This document shows, piece after piece, positions 8,445 to 25,315 of a stretch of DNA of 64,000 bases. Location of the stretch: the NCBI RefSeq assembly GCF_000022365.1, contig NC_012804.1:806001-870000 (forward strand), in the 5' to 3' direction. The stretch comes from Thermococcus gammatolerans EJ3 (lineage in GTDB: Archaea > Methanobacteriota_B > Thermococci > Thermococcales > Thermococcaceae). The notes beneath the pieces were generated by a model. It made no database searches, was not told the DNA's origin, and saw only the letters and a list, made by a program, of their open reading frames with translations. The position numbers and the translations under genes are program-made. Position 1 is the first letter of the stretch; each line of letters starts with the position of its first letter.

Positions 8445-9008
8445 ATGGCCGTAGAGGTACCCTATGTGCTCTTCAGAACGAGATCTGGGGTTTATGGGAT
8501 AGACGGCTACTTCTACCCTGCCCTTGAGAGGGTTGAGCACAGGGCCGCCCTGCTGAGGAAGATGCCACCGAAACCTGTTCCCCGAGCCTACGGGGACTCC
8601 TACGTGACCCCAAGCAACGTGGGGAAAGTCCTCAGGGAGTTGGCCCTTGAGCTGTACGAACTCACCGGCAGAAGTTTTGATGAAAGGGGCCGACACATGA
8701 GACGCTGGAATATACTTCGCTTTCTGGGTATTCCTTCCGGCTATATTAAGAACCTGAAGCGGGACGAGGAACTTGCCGGGAGGGTGAGGCGGGCCCTGTT
8801 GGCCCTCTCAATAGTGGAACACGTCCTCGGGATAAAGGGCCCTGCCGATCTGGATGACCTTTTCGTTGAGCCCCTCGGATGGTCCGTTTTCAGGCTGGAG
8901 ATAGTGAAAGGTAGACCCGTGGATCCAGTTTATTCACAGCTTTACGAAGACGACGCGGGTTTTAGAAGGGCCCTCCATGAAGTGTTGAAAAAAGAAGGGG
9001 GGTTATGA
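8445..9008 (+). CDS. Unknown 187-residue protein
   Basis: I do not recognise this protein. It is soluble and mixed alpha/beta: an N-terminal beta stretch (EVPYVLFRTRSGVYGIDGYF), a basic middle (GRHMRRWNILRFLGIPSGYI) and helical segments (RRALLALSIVEHVLGIK). The YVTPSNVGKVLRELALELYE segment with the following RRWNILRFLGIP could form a helix-turn-helix-like unit, but this is a guess. TATA-like GGTTTTATATG is at 8405-8415 and the ATG follows GGCGGGATGTGCG. The last 6 bases overlap the convergent DppF gene. Confidence 0.6.
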   Translation: MAVEVPYVLFRTRSGVYGIDGYFYPALERVEHRAALLRKMPPKPVPRAYGDSYVTPSNVGKVLRELALELYELTGRSFDERGRHMRRWNILRFLGIPSGYIKNLKRDEELAGRVRRALLALSIVEHVLGIKGPADLDDLFVEPLGWSVFRLEIVKGRPVDPVYSQLYEDDAGFRRALHEVLKKEGGL

Positions 9009-9977
9009 TTTGGCGTAAAGCCAGCAGGCGACGTAGTGATCCTTCTCAACCTCCACCAGAGGAGGCTCCTCTTTCTTGCACCTGTCCATAACCCTGGGAC
9101 ATCTCGGGTGGAAGCGGCAGCCCTTCGGCGGGTTTATTGGGCTCGGAGGTTCTCCCTCTATCTTCATCCGCTTCCTCTTGAGTTCCTGCGCCAGTTCCGG
9201 ATCGGGAACGGGAATCGCCGACAGGAGCATCTGGGTGTAGGGATGCAGTGGGTTCTCAAAGATCTTCTCCGCTGGACCGACTTCAACGAGCTTTCCGAGG
9301 TACATCACGCCCATTCGGTGGCTCATGTACTTGACGACACCGAGGTCGTGACTTATGAATAGGTATGTGAACCCGTACTTCTTCTGGAGATCTTTGAGCA
9401 TGTTGAGTATGTTCGCCTGAACCGAGACGTCTAGGGCAGAGGTGGGCTCGTCGAGTACAATGAACTCTGGCTTGAGGGCCAAGAGCCTCGCGAGGGCTAT
9501 TCTCTGCCTCTGTCCTCCGGAGAATTCGTGGGGATAGCGGTAAAGGTGCATCTCGTTGAGACCGACGCTCTCGAGCAGGTCTATAACGAACTCCTCCGGA
9601 TCGTCAACAGGTATCCCGTGGAAGCGAACGGGTTCCATTATGATTTCAAAAACAGTCTGCCTGGGGTTCAGGGAGGAGTACGGATCCTGAAACATTATCT
9701 GGGCCCTCCTCCTGAAGGCCTTCATTTCCTCACCGCTCAGCTTGGTAACGTCCTTTCCGTCAAAGATTATCCTTCCCGACGTTGGTTCTATGAGCCTCAG
9801 GATTGTTCTTCCCGTTGTGGTCTTTCCACATCCGCTCTCGCCGACGAGCCCAAAGGTTTCACCTCTGTTTATCTCAAAACTTACTCCATCGACGGCCTTG
9901 ACGTATCCTATGGTCCGGAAGAGCCCCCTGACGGGGAAGTACTTCTTAAGGTTTTCAACCTTGAGCAGGGGTTCCAT
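9003..9977 (-). CDS. Oligopeptide ABC transporter ATP-binding protein (DppF/OppF type)
   Basis: A 324-residue ABC ATPase. Walker A GESGCGKTT lies near residue 45, the Q-loop MFQDPYSSLNPRQ near 97, the signature FSGGQRQRIALARLLA near 155 and Walker B FIVLDEPTSALD near 176, with the D-loop/H-loop ISHDLGVVKYMSH near 210. The C-terminal oligopeptide-transporter extension carries CRFHPRCPRVMDRC, the Cys-rich motif typical of Opp/DppD-F proteins, which can hold an iron-sulfur cluster in some members. It is the last gene of the binding protein-DppB-DppC-DppD-DppF operon. Start: ATG 9977 with GAGGTG upstream, in preference to the in-frame GTG at 9986 inside the ribosome-binding site. Confidence 0.94.
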   Translation of the reverse strand: MEPLLKVENLKKYFPVRGLFRTIGYVKAVDGVSFEINRGETFGLVGESGCGKTTTGRTILRLIEPTSGRIIFDGKDVTKLSGEEMKAFRRRAQIMFQDPYSSLNPRQTVFEIIMEPVRFHGIPVDDPEEFVIDLLESVGLNEMHLYRYPHEFSGGQRQRIALARLLALKPEFIVLDEPTSALDVSVQANILNMLKDLQKKYGFTYLFISHDLGVVKYMSHRMGVMYLGKLVEVGPAEKIFENPLHPYTQMLLSAIPVPDPELAQELKRKRMKIEGEPPSPINPPKGCRFHPRCPRVMDRCKKEEPPLVEVEKDHYVACWLYAKS

Positions 9978-9987
9978 CGCCATCACC

Positions 9988-10968
9988 TCAGTACAGGTGG
10001 CAGGCCACGAAGTGGCCCGGTTCGATCTCCTTCAGTTTTGGAACTTCTTTCCTGCAGATCTCGGTCGCGTAGGGACATCTCGGGTGGAAGCGGCAGCCCT
10101 TGGGCGGTGTTATCAGGTTTGGCACTGTTCCCGGTATGGCCTCAAGCCTCTCTATCTTCGCCAGCGGGTTTGGAACAGCCCTCAGCAGGCCCTTTGTATA
10201 CGGGTGGAGGGGATTCTTGAAGATCTGATCCACTGAGCCTATTTCCACGATCTTGCCGGCGTACATGACTGCAACGCGATCTGCCATCTCTGCGACGACT
10301 CCCATGTTGTGGGTGATTAAAATCACGGTCGTGTTGTACTCCTTTTTGAGCTTGTTCATGAGGTCGAGGATTTGGGCCTGGACGGTAACGTCAAGGGCAG
10401 TCGTGGGTTCATCCGCTATCAGGATCTTTGGATCGTTTGAAACCCCGATTCCAATAACAACGCGCTGTTTCATACCTCCACTGAGCTCGTGCGGATAGTT
10501 TTTGACTCTGTTCTCTGGATCGGGGATGAGAACGCGCCTCAGTATGTCCACTGCCCTTCTGAATCCTTCTTTCCAGTCCTTCACGGTCCTGTGGACAACC
10601 ATTGCCTCCGCTATTTGATAGCCGACGGTGTAGAGGGGATCCAGTGATGCATGTGGATCCTGAAAGATATACGCTATTTCCTTACCCCTTATCTCCCTGA
10701 TCTCTTCCTCACTGAGCTTGAGCAGGTCAACTGTCGAGCCGTCTTCCCTGTGATAGATAACTTTCCCCCTCACGATCCTTCCTGGACTTTCTATGAGCTG
10801 GGTCAATGCCCTTGATGTCACGCTCTTTCCACAGCCTGTTTCACCGACTAGGGCAAAGGTTTCACCCCTGTAAACATCAAATGAGACTCCCTCTATTGCC
10901 TTGACTATACCGGCGTAGGTGTAGAAGTGGACCGTGAGATCGCGAACTTCGAGAACGGGTTCAGGCAT
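9988..10968 (-). CDS. Oligopeptide ABC transporter ATP-binding protein (DppD/OppD type)
   Basis: A 326-residue ABC ATPase. Walker A is GETGCGKSV (near residue 37), Q-loop FQDPHASLDPLYTV (near 100), signature LSGGMKQRVVIGIGVS (near 158) and Walker B ILIADEPTTALD (near 178). The C-terminal CRFHPRCPYATEIC motif again marks the oligopeptide family. The ATG at 10968 overlaps the end of the DppC gene and has GGTGGGGAGA before it; the upstream in-frame GTG at 10977 lies within that site. With DppF it should form the ATPase heterodimer under the DppBC channel. Confidence 0.94.
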   Translation of the reverse strand: MPEPVLEVRDLTVHFYTYAGIVKAIEGVSFDVYRGETFALVGETGCGKSVTSRALTQLIESPGRIVRGKVIYHREDGSTVDLLKLSEEEIREIRGKEIAYIFQDPHASLDPLYTVGYQIAEAMVVHRTVKDWKEGFRRAVDILRRVLIPDPENRVKNYPHELSGGMKQRVVIGIGVSNDPKILIADEPTTALDVTVQAQILDLMNKLKKEYNTTVILITHNMGVVAEMADRVAVMYAGKIVEIGSVDQIFKNPLHPYTKGLLRAVPNPLAKIERLEAIPGTVPNLITPPKGCRFHPRCPYATEICRKEVPKLKEIEPGHFVACHLY

Positions 10969-12121
10969 TCTCCCCACCCTCCTTCTCTTCCATCTGCTTC
11001 TGCTTCTTCACCTTGAACTCTATGCTCCGCCTCATCTTTGGATCGAGGATGTCTCTGAGCGTGTCACCGAGGAGGTTCCATCCGAGGGCAACGAGCAGGA
11101 TCATAAATCCCGAGAACGTAACAAGCCACCATTTTTCGGGGAAGTACTGGGAGCCGTCGTAGACTATCCTACCCCAGTCAGCTATTGGAGGTGTTGCACC
11201 GAGGCCGAGGAAGCTCAGGCCGGCCTCCATGAGGATAACTCCACCGAAGTCAAGGGTTATGTAAACTAGAATCGGCCCGATGATGTTCGGCAGGATATGT
11301 TTGAACATTATCGTTCTGGAGCTCAGACCTATTGCCCTTGCCGCCTCAACGTAGAGCTTCTCCCTCTCCGTCAGCGTTGAACCTCTGGTTATCCTCGCAT
11401 ATGCCGGCCACCAGACTATGACCATTGCCAGTATAACCGCCAGCAGCTTTCCGAGGTTTCCTGCTTCCTGCGGTTTCAACGCGAATATCTTTAGGAACAG
11501 GCTCTCAAAGACCTTGTGACTGCTGATGAAGGATTGAAGTCTCTCGGGCAGGACGGCCGAGAACGCTATAGCGAGGATCAACGCCGGGAAGGCCAGAAAC
11601 ATGTCGGTTATGCGCATTATGAGCTCGTCGATCTTCCCTCCGTAATAGCCTGCTATGAGGCCGAGGATTATGCCAAGGGGCACTCCAAGGACAATGACTA
11701 TGATGGATATCACGAAGGACGTTCTTGCCCCGTAGAGGATCAGGCTCAGCAGATCCCTTCCATAATTGTCGGCTCCGAGGGGGTAGGATATCGTCTTGTT
11801 GGAAAACGGTAAGTAAGCGTGGGATCCCGGGGGTGCAAGGTAAGTCGACATGTTCTCGAGGGCGGGGAAGTAGCGGTAGCTCCAAGGTGCGAGAGTTGGA
11901 CCGAAGATGCCGAGGAAGATGAACATGCCTATCAGGACTAGGCCTATTAATCCGGGGGGTGAGCGGTTGAGGGCGTAGAGCATCAGCTTCCACTCTTCCA
12001 TCTTCGAGCGGTTTTTCCTCTTCCAATCCTTCTTAAAGAGGGATATGAATGAGCCTATCCCCTCGACGAGATTATCAGCAAACCTGTCAAGAATCCCCTT
12101 CTTGTACTCTTCCTGTGACAT
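10961..12121 (-). CDS. Oligopeptide ABC transporter permease (DppC/OppC type)
   Basis: A 386-residue permease with an N-terminal cytoplasmic segment of about 60 residues, a first span (GLIGLVLIGMFIFLGIFG), a large external loop, and the BPD-type transport core. The EAA loop region is EKLYVEAARAIGLSSRTIMFKHILPN (described by its ends: EKLYVEAARAIGLS then MFKHILPNIIGP), which contacts the ATPase. It is slightly longer than typical DppC, mainly from the charged N-terminus and the external loop (LENMSTYLAPPG). ATG 12121 has GAGGTGGTGATAA before it. It overlaps DppD by 8 nucleotides. Confidence 0.92.
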   Translation of the reverse strand: MSQEEYKKGILDRFADNLVEGIGSFISLFKKDWKRKNRSKMEEWKLMLYALNRSPPGLIGLVLIGMFIFLGIFGPTLAPWSYRYFPALENMSTYLAPPGSHAYLPFSNKTISYPLGADNYGRDLLSLILYGARTSFVISIIVIVLGVPLGIILGLIAGYYGGKIDELIMRITDMFLAFPALILAIAFSAVLPERLQSFISSHKVFESLFLKIFALKPQEAGNLGKLLAVILAMVIVWWPAYARITRGSTLTEREKLYVEAARAIGLSSRTIMFKHILPNIIGPILVYITLDFGGVILMEAGLSFLGLGATPPIADWGRIVYDGSQYFPEKWWLVTFSGFMILLVALGWNLLGDTLRDILDPKMRRSIEFKVKKQKQMEEKEGGENA

Positions 12122-12132
12122 TTATCACCACC

Positions 12133-13134
12133 TCAGTACCTCACCCTCGGGTCAACGACCGCGTACAGTATGTCCACTATCAGGTTGGTAGTCACGAAGA
12201 TCAGGGCGAAGATGAAGGTTATGGCCACTACCGCTGGAAAGTCAAGGTTCCTTATGGCGTCGAGAACGTATGAGCCCATCCCTGGTAGGCCAAATACTGT
12301 CTCGGTTATTGGGGTTCCGCCGAGCAGCCCACCGAACTGGAGGCCGAGAACTGTAAGTATGGGCACGAGGGCGTTTTTCAGGGCGTGACGGTATATCCTG
12401 AGCTTTGGAACTCCCTTTGCCTTGAGGAAGGCCACGTAGTCACTGCTGAGTGCCTCAAGGAACGAGTTTCTGACGAACCTGGCAAGAACGCCCGAGCCCG
12501 TAAAACCAAGAGTAAGGCCTGGAAGCCAGAGCCTGTTAAGGTGCTGGCTGAAGATCTTGAAATCTCCAGTGAGGAGCGCGTCTATCATGGGGATGTGGGT
12601 TATTTCATGGGCTGGAGGGGCAGGAAAACCGGCGAGTGTTATAACACGCCATTTGACGAAGAATATGTACATGAGCATGTAACCGAGCCAGAATATCGGC
12701 ATGGAAACTCCGGTCAGGGCAAAAATCCTGACGAGGGTATCAACCCACGTGTTCCTCTTGAGGGCAGCCAGTATACCAAGGGGAAGACCTATTATCAGTA
12801 TGAAGAAGAACGCCACCAACGTTAGCTCAAACGTCACCGGAAACCTCTTTCCAATATCATCAAACACGTAGTTTGACGTTCTTGGGTCAACGATCTTGTT
12901 CTTGGCAAGTCCGCTGATTAGAAACCAGTACTGCTCGTACCACGGGTCGTTCATATGGTACTGTTCCTTTATCTTCTGAATGGCCTCGGGGGTGGCCTTT
13001 TCTCCACCCGCCCATGCCCTTGCCGGATCGGCTGGAATGACGTAGGCGATTATAAACACAATGAGAGTAACTCCGATGATCGTTGGAATGAACGTAAGAA
13101 GCCTCCTCACAAGGAACTTCCTAAGGTTCGCCAA
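12133..13134 (-). CDS. Oligopeptide ABC transporter permease (DppB/OppB type)
   Basis: A 333-residue six-span permease. The N-terminal span (FLVRRLLTFIPTIIGVTLIV) is characteristic of DppB, followed by ADPARAWAGGEKATPEAIQK. The EAA-type loop DYVAFLKAKGVPKLRIYRHA is near residue 230 and ends near LKNALVPILTVLG. Translation most likely starts at TTG 13134, 8 bases after GAGGTGAGC; no in-frame ATG is suitably placed. The gene follows the binding-protein gene after 66 bases and precedes DppC by 11. Confidence 0.92.
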   Translation of the reverse strand: MANLRKFLVRRLLTFIPTIIGVTLIVFIIAYVIPADPARAWAGGEKATPEAIQKIKEQYHMNDPWYEQYWFLISGLAKNKIVDPRTSNYVFDDIGKRFPVTFELTLVAFFFILIIGLPLGILAALKRNTWVDTLVRIFALTGVSMPIFWLGYMLMYIFFVKWRVITLAGFPAPPAHEITHIPMIDALLTGDFKIFSQHLNRLWLPGLTLGFTGSGVLARFVRNSFLEALSSDYVAFLKAKGVPKLRIYRHALKNALVPILTVLGLQFGGLLGGTPITETVFGLPGMGSYVLDAIRNLDFPAVVAITFIFALIFVTTNLIVDILYAVVDPRVRY

Positions 13135-13200: not shown

Positions 13201-15348
13201 TCATCCGGAAACGTTGATTTCGAGGCTCTTGAACTCTGTGGCACCATAGAGGAATGGTCCAACCCAGTTGTCCGAGTCAAGGTAGTCCGGAACCCATCCA
13301 ACGATGTAGACGTCGTAGTCGCCGTGCTCTGTCTTGCTGAGGTAGGTCGGCCAGTTGTAGCTGTTTACCGTGACCTGGAATCCGAGCTGGCTCCAGACGT
13401 TCTGGAGGAGGGTCATTATCTTCTCACGGGCACTGTTGCCCTCGTTGTAGATGAGCTCGATCTTGTACTTGCTCGGGTCAACACCAGCCTCCTGGAGGAG
13501 CTGCTTGGCCTTGTTGACGTTGTAAGTGTACTTAATGATGCCCTCCTCCATGTAACCCGGCCACGGCTTGGGTATCGGGCCGTAGTTGGGCTCGAGGAGT
13601 CCTTGGTAGACGAGCTGCCTTATCTGATCGTACGGAACTGCATAGGCGAGGGCCTGCCTGACCTTCGGGTCATTGAAGGGCTCCTTCTGGGTGTTGAAGA
13701 CGAGGAAGGTCAGTATTGGCTGGAGGATGTCGGTCTTGACAACTGAGTGGAAGCCGTTGAGCTCAAGCCCCTTCACGCTCTCCATCTTTTCAGGGGGTAT
13801 GGCAACGACATCGGCGGTGCCAGTCTTGAACAGGTTGATCCTTGCCTGAGCGTCGTTGTTGATGACGTAGATAACGTACTTGTGGCCTGGGTTGCTGGTG
13901 GCGTTCCAGTAGTGCGGGTTGTACTCGAGGACTATGTAGCTGTTCTCCTGGTAGTCCTTGACGTAGAACGGTCCGGTTCCAACGGGCTTCTGGTGCATAA
14001 GCTGGTGGGTTGGGTCATCCTTACCAGACTGGAGGTAGTTCCACCAGGCGCTCGGGTCATGGCCGTTGTTGCTGGCCTGCAGGGCCTCTTGGTACTTGTC
14101 GCCGAGGAGGTACTCCATCGGGACGACGCTGAGGAACGGGTCGGCCAGTATGCTTAGAACCGGAGCGTACGGGTTCGGAAGGACGAGCTTGAAGACACCT
14201 GCAGTCTCGCCGTTGTAGCCGAAGAACTGCTTGAGTTCGTCAAGTGAGTGAACCTCCTTAACCTGACCGTTGTACTCGGCAACGAGCGGGTGATCCTTGA
14301 GGTAGTTGTTGAATTCTTCCTCAGTCATGGCCTGGGAGTTGTTGACGTCCATGAAGCTGTCCACCATCCAGCTGACGCTGTGTCCAAGCCTCTCGACGCG
14401 GAGGAACGTGAAGGCAACGTCGGTTGCGTCTATCGGGTAGGTCTTGTCGTTCCAGGGGTCATAGGCCTTAACGCCGCCACGGATAAGGAAGTACCACTCT
14501 GTGCCGTCTTCGTTGTGGGCCCAGGCAACTGCCAGGTCAGGGCTTACGGTCTCGGTGTTCTCCTTCCAGTAAGTAACGAGCGTGTCACCTATCTCGTGCC
14601 AGAGTTCCCATCCAAAGGTCTCGTACGTCATGGCCGGGTCAAAGCTCTCCGGCCAGCCGATGGTGGCTATAACGTAGGTATCGGGGCCATTCTTGTAGTC
14701 CTTGATACCGATCTCGACGGACGGAGCGTTCGAATCCTCGCTGAGGAGGTCGTAGCGCTCCGCGAGGGTCGGGTGGTAGTAGCGGCCCTTCACCCATTCC
14801 CAGTAGACGCGGAGCTGCTTGTTCTGACCGAGGATTACCTCTGGCACGAGCTTGTTTCCGAGCATGTAGAGGGCCTTGAATATCTCGGTTCTGATCTCGG
14901 GGTTGGTCTCGCGCCTCGCGGCTATAACGAGGGCATCAACGTGTTCATCACGGAAGAAGGCGGGGTCAATGGCACCGAATCCCTGACCCTGCTCCATCAG
15001 GGTCTTAACATCGGGAGTATTCTCGGTATCTACCTCGTACTGGATTTTTATGGTCTTCACGCCGCTTGGGATCTGGGCGGTTGGGTTCTCACCCTTCGGA
15101 CCGACGATTATAACACTCTTGTCAGTCTCTATAACGTAGACCTTATCCATCTCGAGTATCTGGGGTGTCAATTTCGCTTGTGTGCTTGTGGTAGTTGTGC
15201 TGGACGTTTGAGTCTGGCTTGGACTCGAGCTCTGCGTTGGGCTTGAGCTCGTGCCGCCTCCGCCACCACCGATACAGCCGCTGGCCACGACTGAAAAAGC
15301 CACCAAAAACACTACCAAAACAGCCAGTACCTGGCTTTTGGTTCTCAT
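13201..15348 (-). CDS. Family 5 peptide-binding lipoprotein with apparently permuted domain order
   Basis: A 715-residue extracellular solute-binding protein. The signal peptide ends in a lipobox (VVASGC, Cys25) followed by a Gly tract and a Ser/Thr-rich linker to residue 57. The SBP_bac_5 core begins only at about residue 224 (TYVIATIGWPESFDPAM), continues with SPDLAVAWAHNEDGTEWYF, and stops at GWVPDYLDSDNWVGPFLYGA just before the end. Residues 125-202 instead resemble the normal C-terminal part of the family (DEHVDALVIAARRETNPEIR, then GQNKQLRVYWEWVKGRYYHP). The order therefore looks circularly permuted. It is the first gene of the dpp operon. The ATG follows GAGGTGATACCC, and a T-rich stretch follows the stop. 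Confidence 0.92.
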   Translation of the reverse strand: MRTKSQVLAVLVVFLVAFSVVASGCIGGGGGGTSSSPTQSSSPSQTQTSSTTTTSTQAKLTPQILEMDKVYVIETDKSVIIVGPKGENPTAQIPSGVKTIKIQYEVDTENTPDVKTLMEQGQGFGAIDPAFFRDEHVDALVIAARRETNPEIRTEIFKALYMLGNKLVPEVILGQNKQLRVYWEWVKGRYYHPTLAERYDLLSEDSNAPSVEIGIKDYKNGPDTYVIATIGWPESFDPAMTYETFGWELWHEIGDTLVTYWKENTETVSPDLAVAWAHNEDGTEWYFLIRGGVKAYDPWNDKTYPIDATDVAFTFLRVERLGHSVSWMVDSFMDVNNSQAMTEEEFNNYLKDHPLVAEYNGQVKEVHSLDELKQFFGYNGETAGVFKLVLPNPYAPVLSILADPFLSVVPMEYLLGDKYQEALQASNNGHDPSAWWNYLQSGKDDPTHQLMHQKPVGTGPFYVKDYQENSYIVLEYNPHYWNATSNPGHKYVIYVINNDAQARINLFKTGTADVVAIPPEKMESVKGLELNGFHSVVKTDILQPILTFLVFNTQKEPFNDPKVRQALAYAVPYDQIRQLVYQGLLEPNYGPIPKPWPGYMEEGIIKYTYNVNKAKQLLQEAGVDPSKYKIELIYNEGNSAREKIMTLLQNVWSQLGFQVTVNSYNWPTYLSKTEHGDYDVYIVGWVPDYLDSDNWVGPFLYGATEFKSLEINVSG

Positions 15349-17827: not shown

Positions 17828-18499
17828 TTACCGTTCCGGCATGCCCTTATTATCTGATCCGAACCTCTTTTCGTACAGCTCTTTAACTTCCTGGTAAAGC
17901 TCCCAGAGGTAGTCGTACTTCTCGGGAGTTCTCCCGTGCTCAAGCCGAATTTTTGCAATAAGCGGAGCGTACTTCTCCAGGTACTCCTTGCTGATCTTCA
18001 AAACGTCCTCAACAAACTCCTTGAGGGGAAGCTCAACAACACCCTTGTGCTTGCCCTTGAATTCCGGGCAATCTGTGTTGGCTAATAAGTCTTCGTAATA
18101 GTGTATCCTTAATGTGTTCCCGACTAATTCGAAAAAAACATTGGCCGAGTAAGTTAGGAGGTCCGTCCCATAAAGGGGAGTGGAGTCTCCAACGTTGAAT
18201 CCAAGTTCTCTGGCATACTTTCTTACATTACCTCCCAAGTTTCCGTTCTCTCTAAAACGCGGATCAAGCAAGGATAAACAGCAGAATAAAAGTTCCTGAA
18301 TAATCCCATCTGGATTTCCGTAGGTTCCCATTAAGTTATTTCCCAGAATTCTCCAGCACATTCCAGCTATTATCTGTTCACCAAAAAGTATAAGGGTATA
18401 AAAGGAGAGAATTGGTTCTGTTTCATTGAACTTGTCTAAGCTAATCTCAATGCGGAGGTGTCTTCCTTTAAGGATTATTTTTTGTGGGTTTTCATCCAT
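17828..18499 (-). CDS. Putative immunity protein, array copy I8
   Basis: A 223-residue member of the paralogous family that repeats eight times in this region. The conserved parts are an N-terminal strand pair (KIILKGRHLRIEISLDKF), an AGMCW motif near 46, HYYEDLLANTDCPEFKGKHK near 130 and the helical PLKEFVEDVLKISKEYLEKY near 155. There is no signal peptide or membrane span, so it is cytoplasmic. By position directly behind a toxin tip it is inferred to be that toxin's immunity protein; no named immunity family is recognised. Its ATG overlaps the end of tip remnant T8 by 8 bases. It is the last unit of the array. Confidence 0.7.
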   Translation of the reverse strand: MDENPQKIILKGRHLRIEISLDKFNETEPILSFYTLILFGEQIIAGMCWRILGNNLMGTYGNPDGIIQELLFCCLSLLDPRFRENGNLGGNVRKYARELGFNVGDSTPLYGTDLLTYSANVFFELVGNTLRIHYYEDLLANTDCPEFKGKHKGVVELPLKEFVEDVLKISKEYLEKYAPLIAKIRLEHGRTPEKYDYLWELYQEVKELYEKRFGSDNKGMPER

Positions 18500-18677
18500 T
18501 GATTACCCACCTCCTACTCCAGCTTTCATACTGATAGATAGCCCCATCTCGCGTTGGGTAAGCCGTTTTAAGGACATAATAATCTCCTTCACGGCTGAAC
18601 TCCAGTGTAATTTTTTCTATCCCCTCAACATGTATTCCAAGCCCACTGTCCGTTTTTTCATGAAAATATTGTCTCTC
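18492..18677 (-). pseudogene. Toxin-tip remnant T8 (C-terminal half only)
   Basis: In the frame that ends in the I8 start codon I read GLGIHVEGIEKITLEF, then DYYVLKTAYPTRDGAIYQYE and SWSRRWVING, which aligns with the C-terminal half of the other tips (GI..GI..., LKTAYP..G). The frame opens just after a TAG at 18678-18680 and has no start codon. The N-terminal half (QLPKVFNSEEEL) is missing. It is a truncated orphan tip between I7 and I8. Confidence 0.7.
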
Positions 18678-18687
18678 CTAAAACCCA

Positions 18688-19321
18688 TTATACCTCGCTG
18701 AATTCTACTCTTCTTCTTAACCTCCTGAGGAGAGCCAATTTGGCAGCAATGACCTCTTCTTTTTCTCCCAGCTCTACCAATATTTTAGCCTCTACCGGAG
18801 CTATTTCCTCGATGTACTTTTTGGAGAGACTTAGTACATCTTGCACGAAATCATTCAGGGGGACAGACACTGTCCCCTTCCAGTTTCCTATAAATTCTGG
18901 GCAGTTCGTATCCTTTAGAGGAATGTTGTTGTAATGGACATTTATGATATTCCCATCAAGTTCGAAGATGTACTCGCCCAAGTATATCACTAGGCTTGTA
19001 AAGTACAGCTTTGTATTTCTCTTTATAGGAAAGTCTAGTTTTCGCGCATACTCCCTGAGGTTACCGATAAAACCTCCTCCTTCAAGTTTTTCACTGTTAA
19101 TAAGGAAATCACAGCAGTAGAGAAACTCCTGAATAATTCCTGCAGGATCCCCCTGAATTGGATACAGCTCTTTATTTCCATCCTTTCCAATCCAGCAGGT
19201 TCCGGCGATTAGATTATCATCGATTAAAAAGAAGAATTGGAAAAGGAAAGACTAAATCAAGGGCCTTTTTAAGGTATATCTTCAGTGAAATGTGCTTTCC
19301 TCGGAGGACTACCTCTTTCAT
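18688..19321 (-). pseudogene. Putative immunity protein, array copy I7, frameshifted
   Basis: The gene starts at ATG 19321 behind GGGGTGAAGGAC and reads KEVVLRGKHISLKIYLKK up to FPFPILLFNR then stop. In the +1-corrected frame it continues as IDDNLIAGTCWIGKDG and on through NNIPLKDTNCPEFIGNWKG and PLNDFVQDVLSLSKKYIEE to 18688, which restores the full family. One extra base in the A5/T5 run at 19226-19230 explains the shift. It could be real decay, a sequencing or assembly error in the homopolymer, or phase variation. Without the shift the protein would be about 210 residues, normal for the family. Confidence 0.75.
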
Positions 19322-19326
19322 GTCCT

Positions 19327-19662
19327 TCACCCCACAGGCTCTATAACTCTTTTCCATGGTTTGTAAGCCCAAACATTGTATCCTGTTTTCGAATATGTCG
19401 TCTTTAGGTAGTGGATACCGTTTTTGTATTCGAATGCAAACTCTACTGATGTTATGCCCTCCTTGTAAATGCCAACGTCCGAAAGTTCAACAGTTAAGGT
19501 AACACTACCCTCCTTGAACTTACTCGCATAGTCCGGATTTTTGAGTGCCCTCTCCAGTACTTCATCAAGGAACTCTGCCAGCTCCTCCTCACTATTAAAG
19601 ACCTTAGGAAGTTGCTTAACCTCACCGTTCACTATGATTTTCTGCCCCAATAAACCAAGCAC
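19327..19662 (-). CDS. Orphan toxin tip T7
   Basis: A 111-codon frame with the full orphan-tip length: LGQKIIVNGEVKQLPKVF, NSEEELAEFLDEVLERALKN, then PDYASKFKEGSVTLTVEL and HYLKTTYSKTGYNVWAYKP. It lacks the H..RH segment of the complete toxin domain in T1. The frame can start at GTG 19662, but no convincing ribosome-binding site precedes it, so it may be silent. Its TGA at 19327 lies inside the ribosome-binding site of I7. Confidence 0.65.
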   Translation of the reverse strand: MLGLLGQKIIVNGEVKQLPKVFNSEEELAEFLDEVLERALKNPDYASKFKEGSVTLTVELSDVGIYKEGITSVEFAFEYKNGIHYLKTTYSKTGYNVWAYKPWKRVIEPVG

Positions 19663-19708
19663 TAAAAAATTAGGTAATTATCTGAGAAGATCACACTTTT
19701 TAAGATTT

Positions 19709-20368
19709 TCATTTGTTTTTGCTGACCTTTAATTTCTCTTTCAGTGTCTTCCAGTCCTCTAAATCCTCTAAGTATTGCTTTAGATAAAGCTTATACTCAT
19801 CCATTCTGTTGTATCCGTAGGCTTCTTGTCTGACTTTTTCAACGCGCTTGTAGTGCCTCTCCAAGTACTCGCCAAAAACCCTCAAAACATCCTCCCCAAA
19901 CTCGATTAATGGAACCTCAATAGTACCCTTATGCTTACCCTTATACTCCGGACAATCAGTCCCCTCAAGAAGACCATTATAATAATGGATTTTCACACTA
20001 TCCCCAATCCTCTCAAAGAAAACATAAGATTGCATCGCCAGTACTGAACGGTATATGGGAGTGTCATTGGCAACGTTGAAACCATACTCTCTAGCCATTT
20101 CTCGATGTCTGTTGCAGCCTCCCTGTTCATCAGGTTCTAGTAAAGCTCCATCAAGCCCCCAAACCAGCCCATCGAGGACAATTAAAGGATCCGTGCATGT
20201 TCCTTGGAGTTTTCCGCCTTTTGGAGTCCAGCACTGTCCAACCAGGACGTGCTCATCAAAAAGTAAAATAACTGGGAAAGGATCGTAAACTTCGGCCTCC
20301 TTAAACCAGCCTAGCGCAACCTCAAAGTAAATATGCTTACCCTTAATTACAATCTTCTCCACGGGCAT
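19709..20368 (-). CDS. Putative immunity protein, array copy I6
   Basis: A 219-residue member of the array family: KIVIKGKHIYFEVALGWF at the start, VGQCWTPKGGKLQGTCTDP near 44, HYYNGLLEGTDCPEYKGKHK near 130 and an altered PLIEFGEDVLRVFGEYLERH helix. The C-terminus diverges into a Lys/Glu-rich coiled-coil-like tail (LEDLEDWKTLKEKLKVSKNK). The start is ATG 20368 behind GGAGAAGGGTG; the GTG one codon earlier is also open. Toxin T7 follows after about 45 bases. Confidence 0.7.
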   Translation of the reverse strand: MPVEKIVIKGKHIYFEVALGWFKEAEVYDPFPVILLFDEHVLVGQCWTPKGGKLQGTCTDPLIVLDGLVWGLDGALLEPDEQGGCNRHREMAREYGFNVANDTPIYRSVLAMQSYVFFERIGDSVKIHYYNGLLEGTDCPEYKGKHKGTIEVPLIEFGEDVLRVFGEYLERHYKRVEKVRQEAYGYNRMDEYKLYLKQYLEDLEDWKTLKEKLKVSKNK

Positions 20369-20406
20369 CACCCTTCTCCACTCAAGACAAACACCCCATC
20401 TTCAAA
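20368..20406 (-). pseudogene. Toxin-tip relic T6 (13 codons)
   Basis: Between the stop of I5 and the start of I6 only 13 codons remain: FEDGVFVLSGEG then TGA. They match the FEDGEFVLKTAYP region of the complete T1 toxin. The TGA overlaps the start of I6. It is too short to be a gene, and it is best read as the last trace of a deleted tip. Confidence 0.5.
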
Positions 20407-20408
20407 GC

Positions 20409-20987
20409 TCAAGACTCTGACTTAAACCTCTTCTCATACAACTCTTTCACTTCACTGTAGAGCCCCCAAAGGCTATCGTAATTATCAGGCTCTTCTCCAT
20501 GCGCAAGCCTGATTTTCTCAATAACAGGAACGTACTTCTCCAAGTACTCCTTGCTGACTTTCAAGACATCCTCAACGAACTCTTTAAGAGGAACTTCAAC
20601 AACACCCCTATGCTTACCCTTGAATTCCGGACAGTCGGTGTAAGATAGAAGCTCGTTATTGTAATATATCAGCAAACTGCTCTCATCCTCACATTTAAAT
20701 AGATAATCACTGAAGTATATGAACAACGTTGTTCTATATTCGGCTTGTTTTTGTAGCACTGACTTCAATACGTTTAGGAGTTCTTGGAGTAACCCGTAGG
20801 GGTCCCCCGGCTGTCCGGTTAGTTTCCCACCTTCCCTGCTCCAGCATGTCCCGGCCAAAATTTGTCTGTTTACGATCAAAATAATTGGAAAGGGAAAGGC
20901 AGGCTCTGCTGTGTTAAAGGTTGAGATGTCTATGGTTATCTCAATATGGGTTCCCTTGAGAGTTATGGAATTGGCTAGATTTTTCAT
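20409..20987 (-). CDS. Putative immunity protein, array copy I5
   Basis: A 192-residue member, the shortest intact copy. It has SITLKGTHIEITIDISTF at the start, AGTCWSREGGKLTGQPGDP near 46, then lacks about 20 residues before IYYNNELLSYTDCPEFKGK, and ends PLKEFVEDVLKVSKEYLEKY plus EVKELYEKRFKSES. The start is ATG 20987 with GGTGAGC 7 bases before; the in-frame GTG at 21002 belongs to the upstream Shine-Dalgarno region and overlaps the end of tip T5. Confidence 0.7.
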   Translation of the reverse strand: MKNLANSITLKGTHIEITIDISTFNTAEPAFPFPIILIVNRQILAGTCWSREGGKLTGQPGDPYGLLQELLNVLKSVLQKQAEYRTTLFIYFSDYLFKCEDESSLLIYYNNELLSYTDCPEFKGKHRGVVEVPLKEFVEDVLKVSKEYLEKYVPVIEKIRLAHGEEPDNYDSLWGLYSEVKELYEKRFKSES

Positions 20988-20989
20988 GT

Positions 20990-21328
20990 TTAGCTCACCC
21001 ACCTACCAATTGTTGAGACGTACTTTGCAACTGCTGAACCTGCTTTGGGATAGGCTGTTTTCAGATAGTAACTGTTTCCTCCTTTCTCTTTCAGGAATAC
21101 GAACTCCACAACATCAATTCCATCTTTTCTTATGCCGAGTTTTTTAAGATCGACTGTTAGTATAACTTTATCGTTACCGTTGAACTTACTTGCATAATCT
21201 GGATCCTTGAGAGCCTTGTTCACCACTTCCTTCAAAAACTCTACCAGCTCCTCCTCACTGTTAAAGACCTTCGGCAACTGCTTAGCCCGACTGTTCCCTA
21301 TGGGTTTCTGAGCCAAACCTCTTCTCAT
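20990..21328 (-). CDS. Orphan toxin tip T5
   Basis: A tip reading LAQKPIGNSRAKQLPKVF, NSEEELVEFLKEVVNKALKD, PDYASKFNGNDKVILTVDL, then SYYLKTAYPKAGSAVAKYVS. The frame is intact from the GLAQK junction to the stop. The conserved GQKI(I/M)VNG has decayed to AQKPIGNS. The junction lies inside the last codons of I4 in another frame. No start codon with a ribosome-binding site is apparent, so it is probably silent unless recombined. Confidence 0.65.
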   Translation of the reverse strand: MRRGLAQKPIGNSRAKQLPKVFNSEEELVEFLKEVVNKALKDPDYASKFNGNDKVILTVDLKKLGIRKDGIDVVEFVFLKEKGGNSYYLKTAYPKAGSAVAKYVSTIGRWVS

Positions 21329-21923
21329 ACAACTCTTTTACTTCGCGATAGAACTTTTGGAGGAAGTCATAATCATCGGACCATATCCCGTGCTCATGCA
21401 GGACTTCCTCGATGACCGGAGCGTATTTTTCTAAGTATTCCCTGCTGATTTTCAAAACATCCTCAATGAACTCTTTGAGAGGAAGCTCAACAACACCCCT
21501 GTGCCTGCCCTTGAATTCCGGACAGTCAGTAAATTCAAGGAGTTCATTGTGATAGTAGATTCTCGCTGTTTTTCCGTTGGAGCAGAAGTAGTACATGCCC
21601 GACCTCTCAGACACTTGGTACACAACAACCTCATCCTTCAACTCAAACCCATCTTTCTCCGCATTCTCTCTGTCGAATTTAGTTATTTTTTGAACGTGTG
21701 GGTGTTCTGGCTGTAAAAAGTAATAACAGGCAGTTAACAAACTCTCAAAAAACCCGTAAACGTCAGCCTCGGCTCCTTCTAGTTTGTTGTTCCAGCAGGT
21801 TCCAAGGAGTATTGTGTTGTCGATGATAAAAACTAAAGTGAAGGGGTCTGGGGAGGGTACGTACTCTGTCCAGGCCCTTACGAACACGTGCCTCTCCTTT
21901 AAATCAAAATACTCAATACTCAA
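21282..21923 (-). CDS. Putative immunity protein, array copy I4
   Basis: A 213-residue member with a more divergent N-terminus (YFDLKERHVFVRAWTEYVPS), LGTCWNNKLEGAEADVYGF near 45, YYHNELLEFTDCPEFKGRHR and PLKEFIEDVLKISREYLEKY. The best start is TTG 21923, immediately after the TGA of remnant T4 (TGATTG) and 8 bases after GGTGA, so it appears translationally coupled to the remnant. Its last codons (FGSETHREQSG) are read from the out-of-frame start of tip T5, so the C-terminus was created by the fusion. Confidence 0.68.
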   Translation of the reverse strand: MSIEYFDLKERHVFVRAWTEYVPSPDPFTLVFIIDNTILLGTCWNNKLEGAEADVYGFFESLLTACYYFLQPEHPHVQKITKFDRENAEKDGFELKDEVVVYQVSERSGMYYFCSNGKTARIYYHNELLEFTDCPEFKGRHRGVVELPLKEFIEDVLKISREYLEKYAPVIEEVLHEHGIWSDDYDFLQKFYREVKELYEKRFGSETHREQSG

Positions 21924-22013
21924 TCATTTTTTCACCCTGTACCTATTGTACTCCCACACCGCACTACCCTCCTTAGGATAAGCAGTCCTTAAGACAAACG
22001 CCCCATCTTCTAA
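21924..22013 (-). pseudogene. Toxin-tip remnant T4 (about 29 codons)
   Basis: Immediately in frame after the TAA of I3 the sequence reads LEDGAFVLRTAYPKEGSAVW then EYNRYRVKK and TGA. This is the C-terminal end of a toxin tip (compare FEDGEFVLKTAYPTKGWAVE in T1). Everything upstream in the tip has been deleted. It has no start codon. Confidence 0.65.
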
Positions 22014-22655
22014 TTAAATCACATTTGCCTTCAAAAATTTCAATTCTTTTTTGTGCGACTCTTTGATTTCTTGGTACCATTTCCAGAGGACATCGTGATC
22101 ATATGGTTCCTCCCCTCGCTCCATCATGATCTGTTCTATTATACTTGCATAGTTTTTGAGATATTCCCCTGAAATTCTGAGCACATCTTCGACAAATTCC
22201 GCAAATAGTAGTTCGATGGTGCCTTTTTGCTTCTCCTTGAATTCCGGACAGTCAGTTTCGTCAAGGAGTCTGTTGTAGTAATGCACATTCACGATATCCT
22301 TCGTTCTTTCGAGGAAAATGTAGACAGAGTCCGCTATGGATGTTGCAGAGTAAATTAGAGAGTCTTCTTCCACATGAAAGCCGTATTCCCTAACTGTGTC
22401 CCTCTTTACACCCACAAGCTCTCCTGGTTTTGCTCTCATAAAGAACCTGATGCTGTCAAGCAAGTCCTGCACAATCCCGTAAGGATCCCCGGGTGCTCCA
22501 GTCAGCTTTCCAGAACTCCATTTTTCCCAACACATGCCTACAATAACGTGGCCGTCCACCAACATAACAACAGGAAACGGATATGCTCCCCCGTAAAACT
22601 TCCTTAAATCCGCTTCTATATAGATGTGTTTGCTTGATAGTTTAAGTGTGTCCAT
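22014..22655 (-). CDS. Putative immunity protein, array copy I3
   Basis: A 213-residue member: LKLSSKHIYIEADLRKFYGG at the start, VGMCWEKWSSGKLTGAPGDP near 43, HYYNRLLDETDCPEFKEKQK and a variant LFAEFVEDVLRISGEYLKNY helix. The ATG has a strong GGAGGTGATAAT site. The C-terminus (ELKFLKANVI) differs from the other copies. It is followed in frame, after its stop, by remnant T4. Confidence 0.7.
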   Translation of the reverse strand: MDTLKLSSKHIYIEADLRKFYGGAYPFPVVMLVDGHVIVGMCWEKWSSGKLTGAPGDPYGIVQDLLDSIRFFMRAKPGELVGVKRDTVREYGFHVEEDSLIYSATSIADSVYIFLERTKDIVNVHYYNRLLDETDCPEFKEKQKGTIELLFAEFVEDVLRISGEYLKNYASIIEQIMMERGEEPYDHDVLWKWYQEIKESHKKELKFLKANVI

Positions 22656-22694
22656 ATTATCACCTCCATACCGATGGAAAATGAAATAGGTAGT

Positions 22695-23038
22695 CTATCC
22701 AGTTACTACCCATTCTCTGCTCCATTTCCGATATTCGAGAACTTTGTTGCCTCTTGTGGGATATGCTGTCTTAAGGTAGTAGTTGGAGGAGCCTTTTGCT
22801 TTTGGGAACACTAATTCGACCTCTTCGATTCCTTCTACATTTATTCCAATTAAGATCAACTGTCAGTACAACCTTCCCTCCACCATTGAACTTACTCGCA
22901 TAATCTGGATCCTTGAGCGCCTTGTTCACAACTTCCTTCAAAAACTCCACTAACTCCTCCTCACTATTAAAGACCTTAGGAAGTTGCTTAACCTCACCGT
23001 TCACCATGATTTTCTGACCCAATGGCCAGAAGGTCGTT
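22695..23038 (-). pseudogene. Orphan toxin tip T3, frameshifted
   Basis: The tip begins KTTFWPLGQKIMVNG, continues EVKQLPKVFNSEEELVEFLK, PDYASKFNGGGKVVLTVDL, and then the frame is lost near 22850. In the next frame it resumes as GINVEGIEEVELVFPKAKGS and YYLKTAYPTRGNKVLEYRK to a TAG at 22695. A net loss of bases near 22850 explains the shift. Its first 31 bases match the corresponding part of T1 at 29 positions. A TTG at 23022 could start the first part. Confidence 0.7.
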
Positions 23039-23040
23039 TT

Positions 23041-23646
23041 TCAATATAATGCAATGCTTAAATCCAGCTCTGTTTTAATTTCTTGTATGAGGTTTTCTAG
23101 GTATCGCCTAAGCCGAGAAATTTCCTCTGCAAATCCGTCATATTGCGTGGCTTTAATCTCCATTTCTATTGGGAAGCATTTTTCAAGGTACTCCTCGCTT
23201 ATTTTGAGAATATCGGCGACGAAGGCCTCAAACAGTAATTCAATGGTGCCCTGAAGAGGGTTCTTTGAGGAAATGTATCTGGGAGCCTCATTTATGAAAT
23301 GAAAACGCAACAATTCCCCTTTTCTTTCGAGATAATACGTGTTAAAATCAAGGTCAAGTATTGGCCCGCAGACATAGCTATCAGGCAATAAATCAAAACC
23401 GTCATTCTCAGCGTTTTTCCTTTTGTTAAAACAACTTTCAGGGTACTTCAGGAGATCTCTAGTACAGAGAAGTAGATCCTGAAAGAGAGCATATAAGTCG
23501 CCAAGCCATCCCTCATCGGGGTATCCCCCTACTTCATGCCCAGCCACCAAAAAAAGAATAGGAAAACGGCCGGGAAATGGTTCTGGCTCAAAGGATTCCA
23601 TATCTATTTCAATCTCAATGAATTTTCCACGAAGTCTGCACCTCAT
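23041..23646 (-). CDS. Putative immunity protein, array copy I2 (most divergent)
   Basis: A 201-residue protein with the same architecture but low similarity: RCRLRGKFIEIEIDMESF at the start, a HEVGGYPDEGWLGDLYALF region where other copies have CW, and EAFVADILKISEEYLEKCFP in place of the PLKEF helix. The TDCPEFKGK motif is replaced by SSKNPLQGTIEL. ATG 23646 follows GGGGTGACTTCA; the frame is also open to 23670. It follows tip T2, which is equally divergent from the other tips, so pair and tip diverged together. Confidence 0.62.
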   Translation of the reverse strand: MRCRLRGKFIEIEIDMESFEPEPFPGRFPILFLVAGHEVGGYPDEGWLGDLYALFQDLLLCTRDLLKYPESCFNKRKNAENDGFDLLPDSYVCGPILDLDFNTYYLERKGELLRFHFINEAPRYISSKNPLQGTIELLFEAFVADILKISEEYLEKCFPIEMEIKATQYDGFAEEISRLRRYLENLIQEIKTELDLSIALY

Positions 23647-23651
23647 TGAAG

Positions 23652-23999
23652 TCACCCCATGTATATCCATCTACCAGATTGTTTTTCTCTGTCCCACACG
23701 TACCCTAAAACTTTCCTGCCTTTTGAGGGATACGCCGTAATGATCTCGTAGGCACCCTTAGCTTGGTTGTATGAGAACTGGAACTCCACCGCATCTATTC
23801 CATCTATGTGCATGCCAAGCTTATCCAAGTTTACCCTTAGCTTCACAAAGCTCTGTCCCCTAAATTCTGTGTAGTACTCTTCCTTCTGAAGGGCCCTCTC
23901 CAGTACTTCATCAAGGAACTCTCTGAGCTCGTGCTCGTCCCTGAAGACCTTAGGGATCTGGACAACCCTCCCGGTTTTGAGGTCAACGATTTTCTGGCC
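23652..23999 (-). CDS. Orphan toxin tip T2
   Basis: An intact tip of about 115 codons: SGQKIVDLKTGRVVQIPKVF, RDEHELREFLDEVLERALQK, then QSFVKLRVNLDKLGMHIDG and YEIITAYPSKGRKVLGYVW. It differs strongly from T3-T7. It has no start codon of its own near the junction; the frame continues upstream antisense-free through the 3' end of I1 but in a different frame from I1. The junction at GQK overlaps the last five codons of I1. Confidence 0.62.
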   Translation of the reverse strand, partial: GQKIVDLKTGRVVQIPKVFRDEHELREFLDEVLERALQKEEYYTEFRGQSFVKLRVNLDKLGMHIDGIDAVEFQFSYNQAKGAYEIITAYPSKGRKVLGYVWDREKQSGRWIYMG

Positions 24000-24600
24000 T
24001 GAACTTCTTCTCGTACAGGTCTTTAACTTCCCGGTAAAGCCCCCAGAGGAAGTCATAATCGTCCAGCTCTTCCCCGTGCTCAAGCCTGATTTTCTCGATG
24101 ACTGAAGCGTACTTTTCCAGATACTCCCTGCTGATTTTCAAAACATCCTCAATGAACTCTTTGAGAGGAACTTCAACGACACCCCTATGCTTACCCTTGA
24201 ATTCCGGACAGTCAGTATACGAGAGAAAGTCGTTATAATAATGAATTTTTAAAGTGCTTCCCTCTGCTTCAAGGTAATAAATGCTGGATGGATTGGATGA
24301 TGTGATGATTTCATAGGCAGGATTGCCTTCTTTAAGAGCAAATCCCATCCACATGGCTTCTTTTCTTGCAAAATTGGAAGTGCTTTCCTTTGGATTAAGA
24401 ATCTGAATGCACGCTATAAGGAGCTCTTGTAAGAATCCATGGATGTTTGCGTTGGCTCCGTCTATTTTTCCTTTCCAGCATGCTCCTAGGAGTAAGTGCT
24501 CATCAACAGTAAAAATCAAAAAGAATGGGTGGGGGGAGGAAACGTACCTGCTCACGTCTATCTTAACGGTTAAGTGCTTCCCCTTCAGTGTAACCCACAT
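23983..24600 (-). CDS. Putative immunity protein, array copy I1 (partner of T1)
   Basis: A 205-residue member following the only near-complete toxin gene, so it is the best candidate for a functional immunity protein. It has VTLKGKHLTVKIDVSRYVSS, LGACWKGKIDGANANIHGFL near 44, HYYNDFLSYTDCPEFKGKHR and PLKEFIEDVLKISREYLEKY. ATG 24600 follows GAGGTGGTTAG and lies 10 bases after the T1 stop. The frame is open further upstream to 24702, but the site and family N-terminus favour 24600. The last codons (FRPENR) overlap the junction of tip T2. Confidence 0.75.
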   Translation of the reverse strand: MWVTLKGKHLTVKIDVSRYVSSPHPFFLIFTVDEHLLLGACWKGKIDGANANIHGFLQELLIACIQILNPKESTSNFARKEAMWMGFALKEGNPAYEIITSSNPSSIYYLEAEGSTLKIHYYNDFLSYTDCPEFKGKHRGVVEVPLKEFIEDVLKISREYLEKYASVIEKIRLEHGEELDDYDFLWGLYREVKDLYEKKFRPENR

Positions 24601-24610
24601 TCTAACCACC

Positions 24611-25315
24611 TCACTGCCAGCCACCCCTGCCAGGAATAAACGTCTCAACCGCCCAGCCCTTCGTTGGATACGCTGTCTTAAGCACAAACTCCCCATCCTC
24701 AAAACTAAAGCTTAAATGTATTTGGTCTATTCCGTCTATTTTGATCCCAAACTTCTCTAAGGGGAATTCTAATTCTACCGTTGTTTTGGGAACCCCATTT
24801 TTAAAGAACTTCTCAGACACGTACTCAGGATTCTTGCTTACTCTTTCAACGACTTCCTTCAAAAACTCCACCAGCTCCTCCTCGTTCCTGAATACCTTCG
24901 GCAACTGCTTAGCCCGGCCGTTCACTATGATCTTCTGACCCAACGGCCAGAAGGTCGTTATTCCTGCGTCCTCCATCTCGTACCCCCTCACGTGCCTGAG
25001 ATAGGCGTGGATCAGCCCACTCCTTTCGTTACCCCCTTGCATTATGACTCTTATTGTTTTGAGTTCCCCGTTGACGTTGACCGTTAGGGTGATCTCTTTC
25101 TTCAGATTTTCTGCACTCTCAAGGAACATCCCAAGCCCCTGAACCAGGCTGCTCGCCGGGGTTCCGTGCTTTGCAGTCTCCTCGATGACGTGCCCGACCT
25201 GATTCCTGGAAACGCCCATCTCGACGAGGTCGTCCGCGTAGCGCCTCAGGGCCTTTATCGTGATCCCGTGCTCGGCCTCGTACTTCACGACGGTTCCAAC
25301 GCTTTCCTCCTTCAT
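24611..25315 (-). CDS. Polymorphic-toxin-like protein T1, only copy with complete toxin domain
   Basis: A 234-residue protein. Residues 1-75 are helical (KALRRYADDLVEMGVSRNQV; VIEETAKHGTPASSLVQGLG), residues 76-100 are a beta segment (ITLTVNVNGELKTIRVIMQG), and then comes the toxin domain: GLIHAYLRHVRGYE near 104, LGQKIIVNGRAKQLPKVF near 124, NEEELVEFLKEVVERVSKNP and DGEFVLKTAYPTKGWAVETF. The H..RH motif plus terminal (V/L)KTAYP resembles BECR-fold RNase toxins, which is an inference. ATG 25315 is used; TTG 25342 is also open. A coding trace in another frame upstream suggests a lost N-terminal part. No secretion signal is present. Confidence 0.68.
   Translation of the reverse strand: MKEESVGTVVKYEAEHGITIKALRRYADDLVEMGVSRNQVGHVIEETAKHGTPASSLVQGLGMFLESAENLKKEITLTVNVNGELKTIRVIMQGGNERSGLIHAYLRHVRGYEMEDAGITTFWPLGQKIIVNGRAKQLPKVFRNEEELVEFLKEVVERVSKNPEYVSEKFFKNGVPKTTVELEFPLEKFGIKIDGIDQIHLSFSFEDGEFVLKTAYPTKGWAVETFIPGRGGWQ

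Follow-up and report, generated by a model that had tools for sequence, protein, structure and literature searches.

How does a substrate-binding protein come to carry its C-terminal tail in front of its N-terminal part, and is such a chain still an intact member of its family? The question is raised by a gene (P0001, table 1) in the window analysed here, a stretch of 64,000 nucleotides from the genome of Thermococcus gammatolerans EJ3 (NC_012804.1, positions 806,001 to 870,000). A preliminary description made from sequence alone had claimed that this gene encodes, in frame, a family 5 binding protein with its usual start at residue 224, its expected tail ahead of it at residues 134-192 and roughly 100 residues missing at the C-terminus; it left undecided whether this is a true permutation that keeps the fold or a deletion between tandem copies, and whether the arrangement is general in Thermococcales. 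The answer that we reach is that the window protein is, with little doubt, a naturally permuted, lipid-anchored substrate-binding protein of an archaeal importer of Dpp/Opp type, a reading in which the fold and the capture of ligand are inferred. The permuted order itself is shown, as are its conservation, its association with the same operon and the presence of a second rotation among the orthologues.

Block order of the window protein

The reading frame is open over 715 codons, without frameshift or stop, and its product matches the Pfam family SBP_bac_5 (PF00496) with 244.2 bits against a curated cut-off of 32.4, even if the match covers residues 268-703 only. Against DppA, phmmer aligns residues 224-318 with the N-terminal part and residues 449-697 with DppA 201-445, and then places residues 139-206 on the C-terminus (DppA 469-536), the last alignment being non-significant at 0.5 bits. 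Profiles are far more explicit. When a profile of the X block (residues 67-223; blocks Y and Z are delimited in table 1), built from 47 family members, is compared by hhalign with a canonical profile from 12 archaeal relatives, residues 127-203 fall on the last 77 columns of the latter (488-564 of 567) with a probability of 97.6-97.8%, an E value of 4e-12 to 8e-13 and a score of about 86, against at most 19.4 for 30 column shuffles and 15.0 for the reversed block. Moreover, once the family profile is rotated to the canonical order Y-Z-X, it aligns collinearly in a single stretch over 481 columns (score 738), compared with 406 columns (score 673) in the natural order. A single canonical homologue, L114, reveals the same order on its own, aligning with residues 222-702 and then with 132-199 (E 4e-4). 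Rotation of the window sequence by itself brought no gain in phmmer, because this program scores local pieces; profiles are needed here.

Table 1. Features of the permuted gene and its operon in window coordinates (X, Y and Z, blocks of the window protein)
Feature	Position	Strand	Residues	Basis
DppF-like ATPase, operon	9003..9986	-		operon comparison
DppD-like ATPase, operon	9988..10977	-		operon comparison
DppC-like permease, operon	10961..12121	-		operon comparison
DppB-like permease, operon	12133..13134	-		operon common to X-Y-Z, Z-X-Y and canonical orders
P0001, whole gene, permuted family 5 (cluster C) substrate-binding lipoprotein, order X-Y-Z	13201..15348	-	715 aa	
Z, canonical middle part, last in the window chain	13204..13884	-	489-715	hhalign to canonical columns 269-484
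Asp688, aligned with DppA Asp436	13285..13287	-	688	phmmer alignment and family alignment
Y-Z loop, opening site of Z-X-Y relatives	13885..13896	-	485-488	alignments
Y, canonical N-terminal part	13897..14679	-	224-484	hhalign to canonical columns 74-263
X-Y linker joining canonical C- and N-termini	14680..14739	-	204-223	alignments
X2, homologous to canonical C-terminal tail	14740..14970	-	127-203	hhalign, phmmer
X1, beta-rich insert at the Z-X junction	14980..15150	-	67-123	no canonical counterpart (hhalign)
Signal peptide, archaeal lipobox VVASG/CIGGG and Ser/Thr-rich linker	15166..15348	-	1-61	
Lipobox Cys25	15274-15276	-	25	sequence inspection

With its tail ahead of its N-terminal part, the window protein fails the canonical order of SBP_bac_5 and cluster C proteins, of which it is a permuted relative and not an ordinary member. 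It does meet the sequence criterion of a circular permutant, namely that homology becomes collinear along the entire chain only once the sequence is rotated, with the old termini joined by a linker. The X1 segment is an insert specific to this family, in which the AlphaFold2 model places strands at residues 63-67, 71-74, 78-84 and 98-106. The chain begins with the signal sequence, whose lipobox (residues 20-29) satisfies by inspection the criterion of archaeal lipoproteins, the attachment of lipid being inferred.

The claim of a tail block preceding the usual start in frame has consequently held, on the strength of the open frame, the profile alignment and its controls, as has the start at about residue 224. 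Two claims have held only in part: the tail block is longer than described, extending from about 127 to 203, and what is missing at the C-terminus amounts to about 77 residues plus the junction. The homology of the tail contradicts the arrangement that would have refuted the permutation, in which a separate N-terminal domain precedes a chain that is complete at its C-terminus.

Distribution, operon and a second rotation

The X-Y-Z protein was found as a single full-length collinear match in 56 of the 115 genomes of the window's phylum, in four genus groups (a tally counted by hand from the match table), with full-length frames and many invariant residues kept down to 52% identity. The order is therefore general in Thermococcales, which settles the question left by the preliminary description; its alternative of a deletion between tandem copies has failed, the order being full length in these 56 Thermococcales genomes and in Thermoproteota too. 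What that description had missed is that in other lineages this protein occurs in another rotation. In genus group g4 each of the three genomes (G004, G009, G014) has the signal peptide followed by the equivalents of window residues 489-715 and then 67-482, that is Z-X-Y, in proteins 73-79% identical to that of the window. Group g4 is probably Palaeococcus, and G004 presumably Palaeococcus pacificus, the operon PAP_00150-00170 of which has been described as a dipeptide/oligopeptide transporter (PMC6981617); this numbering would, we presume, fit the G004 locus near 30 kb. Among 398 sampled genomes of Thermoproteota, 40 match the query, 17 of them with X-Y-Z and 21 with Z-X-Y, the rest being canonical or fragmentary (counts read by hand off match coordinates, G269 carrying both orders).

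All three rotations, X-Y-Z, Z-X-Y and canonical Y-Z-X, thus exist, and the X-Y linker is present in the alignments of X-Y-Z as well as Z-X-Y proteins. Canonical archaeal members of SBP_bac_5 (L061, L068, L114, L063-L066) are about 25-33% identical to the window protein and share its N-terminal anchor, and L061 also its type of operon, but they have the order Y-Z-X and lack the X1 insert; no member combining canonical order with X1 was present in the sample. The binding-protein gene heads a five-gene operon resembling dppABCDF, in which the genes of two permeases and two ATPases come after it, as the criterion for an importer operon requires. At the loci checked the composition of this operon is alike for all three orders, and the remaining operon proteins of g4 share 77-91% identity with their window counterparts.

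Some loci deserve separate mention. The two rotations of G269 lie at L107 and L108, each with its own operon, and G017 has two X-Y-Z copies (L049, L050), one of which spans contig ends. In G041 (L048, 2777-4863) the gene is split into two overlapping frames, corresponding to query residues 1-426 and 419-714, with the other operon genes open; broken copies of the binding-protein gene occur in G020 and G059 too.

Predicted fold and function

Structure prediction, the check proposed in the preliminary description, gives for the X-Y-Z protein (36 sequences) one globule with the N-terminal block inside it, at a pLDDT of 89.5 overall and mostly 91-97 in the block, and a pTM of 0.86; values under 50 are confined to residues 1-56, which are disordered in the model. 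The model of the Z-X-Y protein (17 sequences) is less confident, with a pLDDT of 75.3 and a pTM of 0.68. After rotation, the helices and strands predicted for the two proteins match, with offsets of 432 for Z and about 225 for X and Y, as obtained by manual comparison of the two element lists (for example, strands 491-496, 533-551 and 706-714 of X-Y-Z vs. 59-64, 101-119 and 274-281 of Z-X-Y). For both models Foldseek retrieves cluster C binding proteins, with alignments spanning about 490-510 columns in the case of X-Y-Z and 350-390 in that of Z-X-Y, a difference to be expected because a sequential aligner would lose X or Y. The matches to cluster C structures reach an E value of 2e-25 and a TM score of up to 0.69 by target length, the aligner being blind to the permuted part; sequential structure searches and domain databases cover only part of such permuted proteins. 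A true permutation that keeps the fold is hence supported by the homology of the tail, its conservation and the AlphaFold2 model, yet the canonical cluster C fold remains a prediction, for there is no solved structure and the packing of X2 has not been measured.

In functional terms, the nearest reference is DppA of E. coli and its DppABCDF system (PDB 1dpe, 1dpp, 8z1z), which is among the best matches in fold and sequence and has the same operon composition. By analogy with DppA, we infer that the window protein most likely binds a peptide-like solute and hands it to the permeases. In DppA, Asp436 contacts the amino group of the ligand and Arg383 the carboxylate of the dipeptide (PMC12136057). 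The equivalent of the former, Asp688, is invariant in all 61 family members, whereas the position of Arg383 is occupied by Asn in 54 of the 61 and by Arg in none, so that the permuted family departs from the canonical Y-Z-X protein of E. coli also in this residue. The contact to the amino group may therefore remain, while the clamp on the dipeptide carboxylate is absent. The window protein also fails the NCBIfam criterion for dipeptide-binding DppA, scoring 127 bits where 1005 are required. We infer that oligopeptides, or some other ligand, are more likely than dipeptides, and a plain dipeptide ligand is doubtful.

Evidence that such proteins are made comes from Pyrococcus furiosus, the culture supernatant of which contains PF1408, a lipoprotein of 79.4 kDa identified by 30 unique peptides (52% coverage), annotated as dipeptide-binding and provided with a G/CIGG lipobox (PMC3824201). 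The window protein shares this lipobox, and in most genomes of group g2 the PF1408 signal peptide, used as query, hit the window gene's family before any other. PF1408 is thus a likely orthologue, an assignment resting on the signal peptide only and not on the full sequence; a permuted order is not mentioned in the relevant parts of that paper. Since PF1408 was detected in the supernatant, a protein of this kind is made and exported, and through this probable orthologue it appears likely that the permuted protein is abundant outside P. furiosus cells.

Cut sites, history and rival explanations

Where was the chain opened? When an 85-column profile of the Z-X junction, made from Z-X-Y proteins, is searched in X-Y-Z proteins, the start of the junction is found at their C-terminus and the remainder near their N-terminus, essentially without overlap, the split lying at about column 16, 28 or 45. 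In the thermococcal X-Y-Z proteins the split falls near column 16, and the next helix is lost or N-terminal (L052, L041 and L053 retain it N-terminally from column 18-20); a group of Thermoproteota (L083, L088, L090, L091, L092, L095, L096, L109) retains columns 1-23 to 1-28 C-terminally, and the L071 group columns 1-45. One and the same Z-X junction has been opened, then, at a minimum of three different positions. Z-X-Y proteins, by comparison, all open in the Y-Z loop, ending with NPYYWN..LW..LYGFKP and starting with ..HKxVIYxIN, and this loop is intact in several X-Y-Z proteins, for example as NPYYWNKELWQDLYGQDKPQHELAIFLIN in L090. The body of the g4 proteins matches thermococcal proteins throughout, but their residues 65-90, in the Z-X junction, and their C-terminal extension are nearer to the Z-X-Y proteins of Thermoproteota, which the junction resembles more than the nearest X-Y-Z relatives do.

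In trees of all proteins rotated to one order and stripped of junction columns, a single Z-X-Y clade is rejected by the AU test (log-likelihood 278 lower, p 1e-4; p 2e-48 with junctions included) and appears in none of 200 bootstrap trees. A thermococcal X-Y-Z clade excluding g4 is also rejected (93 lower, p 8e-8; when the divergent L052 group is left out, 41 lower and p 0.007), while the Z-X-Y proteins of Thermoproteota alone may form one clade (p 0.14, junctions included). The main thermococcal clade includes group g4 with a support of 100/99, the exact neighbour of g4 being less sure (85-93), and in the tree of permeases and ATPases g4 falls in Thermococcaceae, near an unresolved base. Without a single origin of Z-X-Y, the cut point has shifted two or more times, in a direction and total number that are unsettled. 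Neither an intermediate of tandem duplication nor leftover Z or X sequence was found beside the thermococcal Z-X-Y genes. Two long frames were rejected as tandem intermediates, that of 1107 aa in G058, which holds a single copy only, and that of 1297 aa in G305 (L101, 2241-6131), in which a run of N joins a glycoside-hydrolase-like frame to a Z-X-Y protein across a scaffold gap, without true fusion.

In evolutionary terms, g4 is the puzzle: How did it obtain its Z-X-Y protein? The data are compatible with retention, with recombination and with the refusion of an X-Y-Z gene, though the Thermoproteota-like junction counts against simple refusion, which does not predict that likeness. A transferred Thermoproteota gene could have had its body overwritten by the resident X-Y-Z gene via gene conversion, leaving the foreign junctions. 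This possibility, clearly less likely than not, draws support from the g4 Z-X junction (DATADDISSMMSEA, GSGASV) and the C-terminal LW..EYGYKP, both resembling Thermoproteota Z-X-Y proteins; against it stand the high identity of g4 to thermococcal X-Y-Z proteins elsewhere, the absence of any visible resident second copy and the fact that X-Y-Z loops in other genomes keep LW..LYG..KP, so that the same loop could be cut twice. Alternatively, Z-X-Y might be ancestral in Thermococcaceae and retained in g4, with X-Y-Z arising independently in the others. The position of g4 near the unresolved base in the operon tree and the ancestral look of its junction speak for retention, which is likewise less likely than not and has slightly less standing than the transfer; against it, the junction-free tree of the binding protein rejects the clade that it requires, and the remaining thermococcal genera have one cut point in common.

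These alternatives concern history only; two others touch the nature of the protein. In a domain swap or oligomer, the N-terminal X block would complete the fold of a neighbouring molecule. The sequence does not rule out such completion in trans, but the confident monomer model includes X (pLDDT mostly above 90), and a short conserved linker ties X to Y in every member, whichever junction is open; we hold this to be very improbable. Gene damage, by which a deletion between tandem copies would have left a truncated, non-functional protein in odd order, can claim that a permutation made by duplicating and trimming the gene would involve such an intermediate and that broken copies exist (G041, G020, G059). 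It is practically eliminated by the open full-length frame in 56 genomes, the conserved operon and the probable abundance of the protein outside P. furiosus cells.

Under the preferred reading, a natural permutant, the chain would fold into a cluster C 'Venus flytrap' with the canonical termini joined at X-Y and new termini opened within the Z-X junction, where the membrane tether would enter. The permutation may have proceeded by in-frame gene duplication followed by trimming at both ends, presumably leaving ligand capture unchanged. More weakly, the chain may tolerate cuts in surface loops from which the Ser/Thr tether can offer the binding protein to the permease. Because the anchor is N-terminal in all three orders, rotation shifts the point at which the tether emerges from the fold. 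An origin of the rotation from a C-terminal anchor was considered and dropped, for wherever the canonical archaeal relatives show an anchor it is at the N-terminus, the distant L003, with a C-terminal one, being the sole exception.

Natural permutation of a tethered binding protein has one precedent. TpMglB-2 (Tp0684) of Treponema pallidum is a tethered lipoprotein of an ABC importer, known from its crystal structure and proposed as 'cluster Bc', and Brautigam and colleagues suggested tethering as the reason for its permutation (PMC4990184). It has a cluster B sugar-binding fold, another cut point and a permuted part poorly conserved in sequence, in contrast to the cluster C fold, the clearly homologous permuted part and the two rotations among orthologues of the window family. 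Apart from TpMglB-2 as a permuted binding protein, we found none, and no permuted family 5 protein, in the open-access literature (subscription journals were not covered), and alternative permutants within one orthologous operon are thus likely to be new. The family fits the tethering idea without proving it, as drift between tolerated surface loops would look alike. A bolder reading, towards which the balance tips slightly, is that of a permutation series, in which the chain was repeatedly reopened at two loops and several positions while fold, operon and permeases stayed constant, with selection acting on the entry of the tether. Circular permutants in nature are, as a rule, old and highly diverged. 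In the present family, permutants of 73-79% identity occupy the same operon in sister genera, which allows folding, stability, tether geometry and docking to the transporter to be compared directly; as a second, independent fold class of permuted tethered binding proteins, they make the hypothesis advanced for TpMglB-2 testable.

Elsewhere in the window, on the reverse strand (17828-24943), lies a tandem array of paralogous unknown ORFs of 197-239 aa with the motif TDCPEFKGKHKG..E.PL.EF.EDVLKIS.EYLEKY, interleaved with ORFs of about 110 aa (PKVFNSEEEL.EFL.EVLERAL). A Pfam search of five ORFs of this array returned no family above the cut-off; its layout recalls that of immunity-gene arrays.
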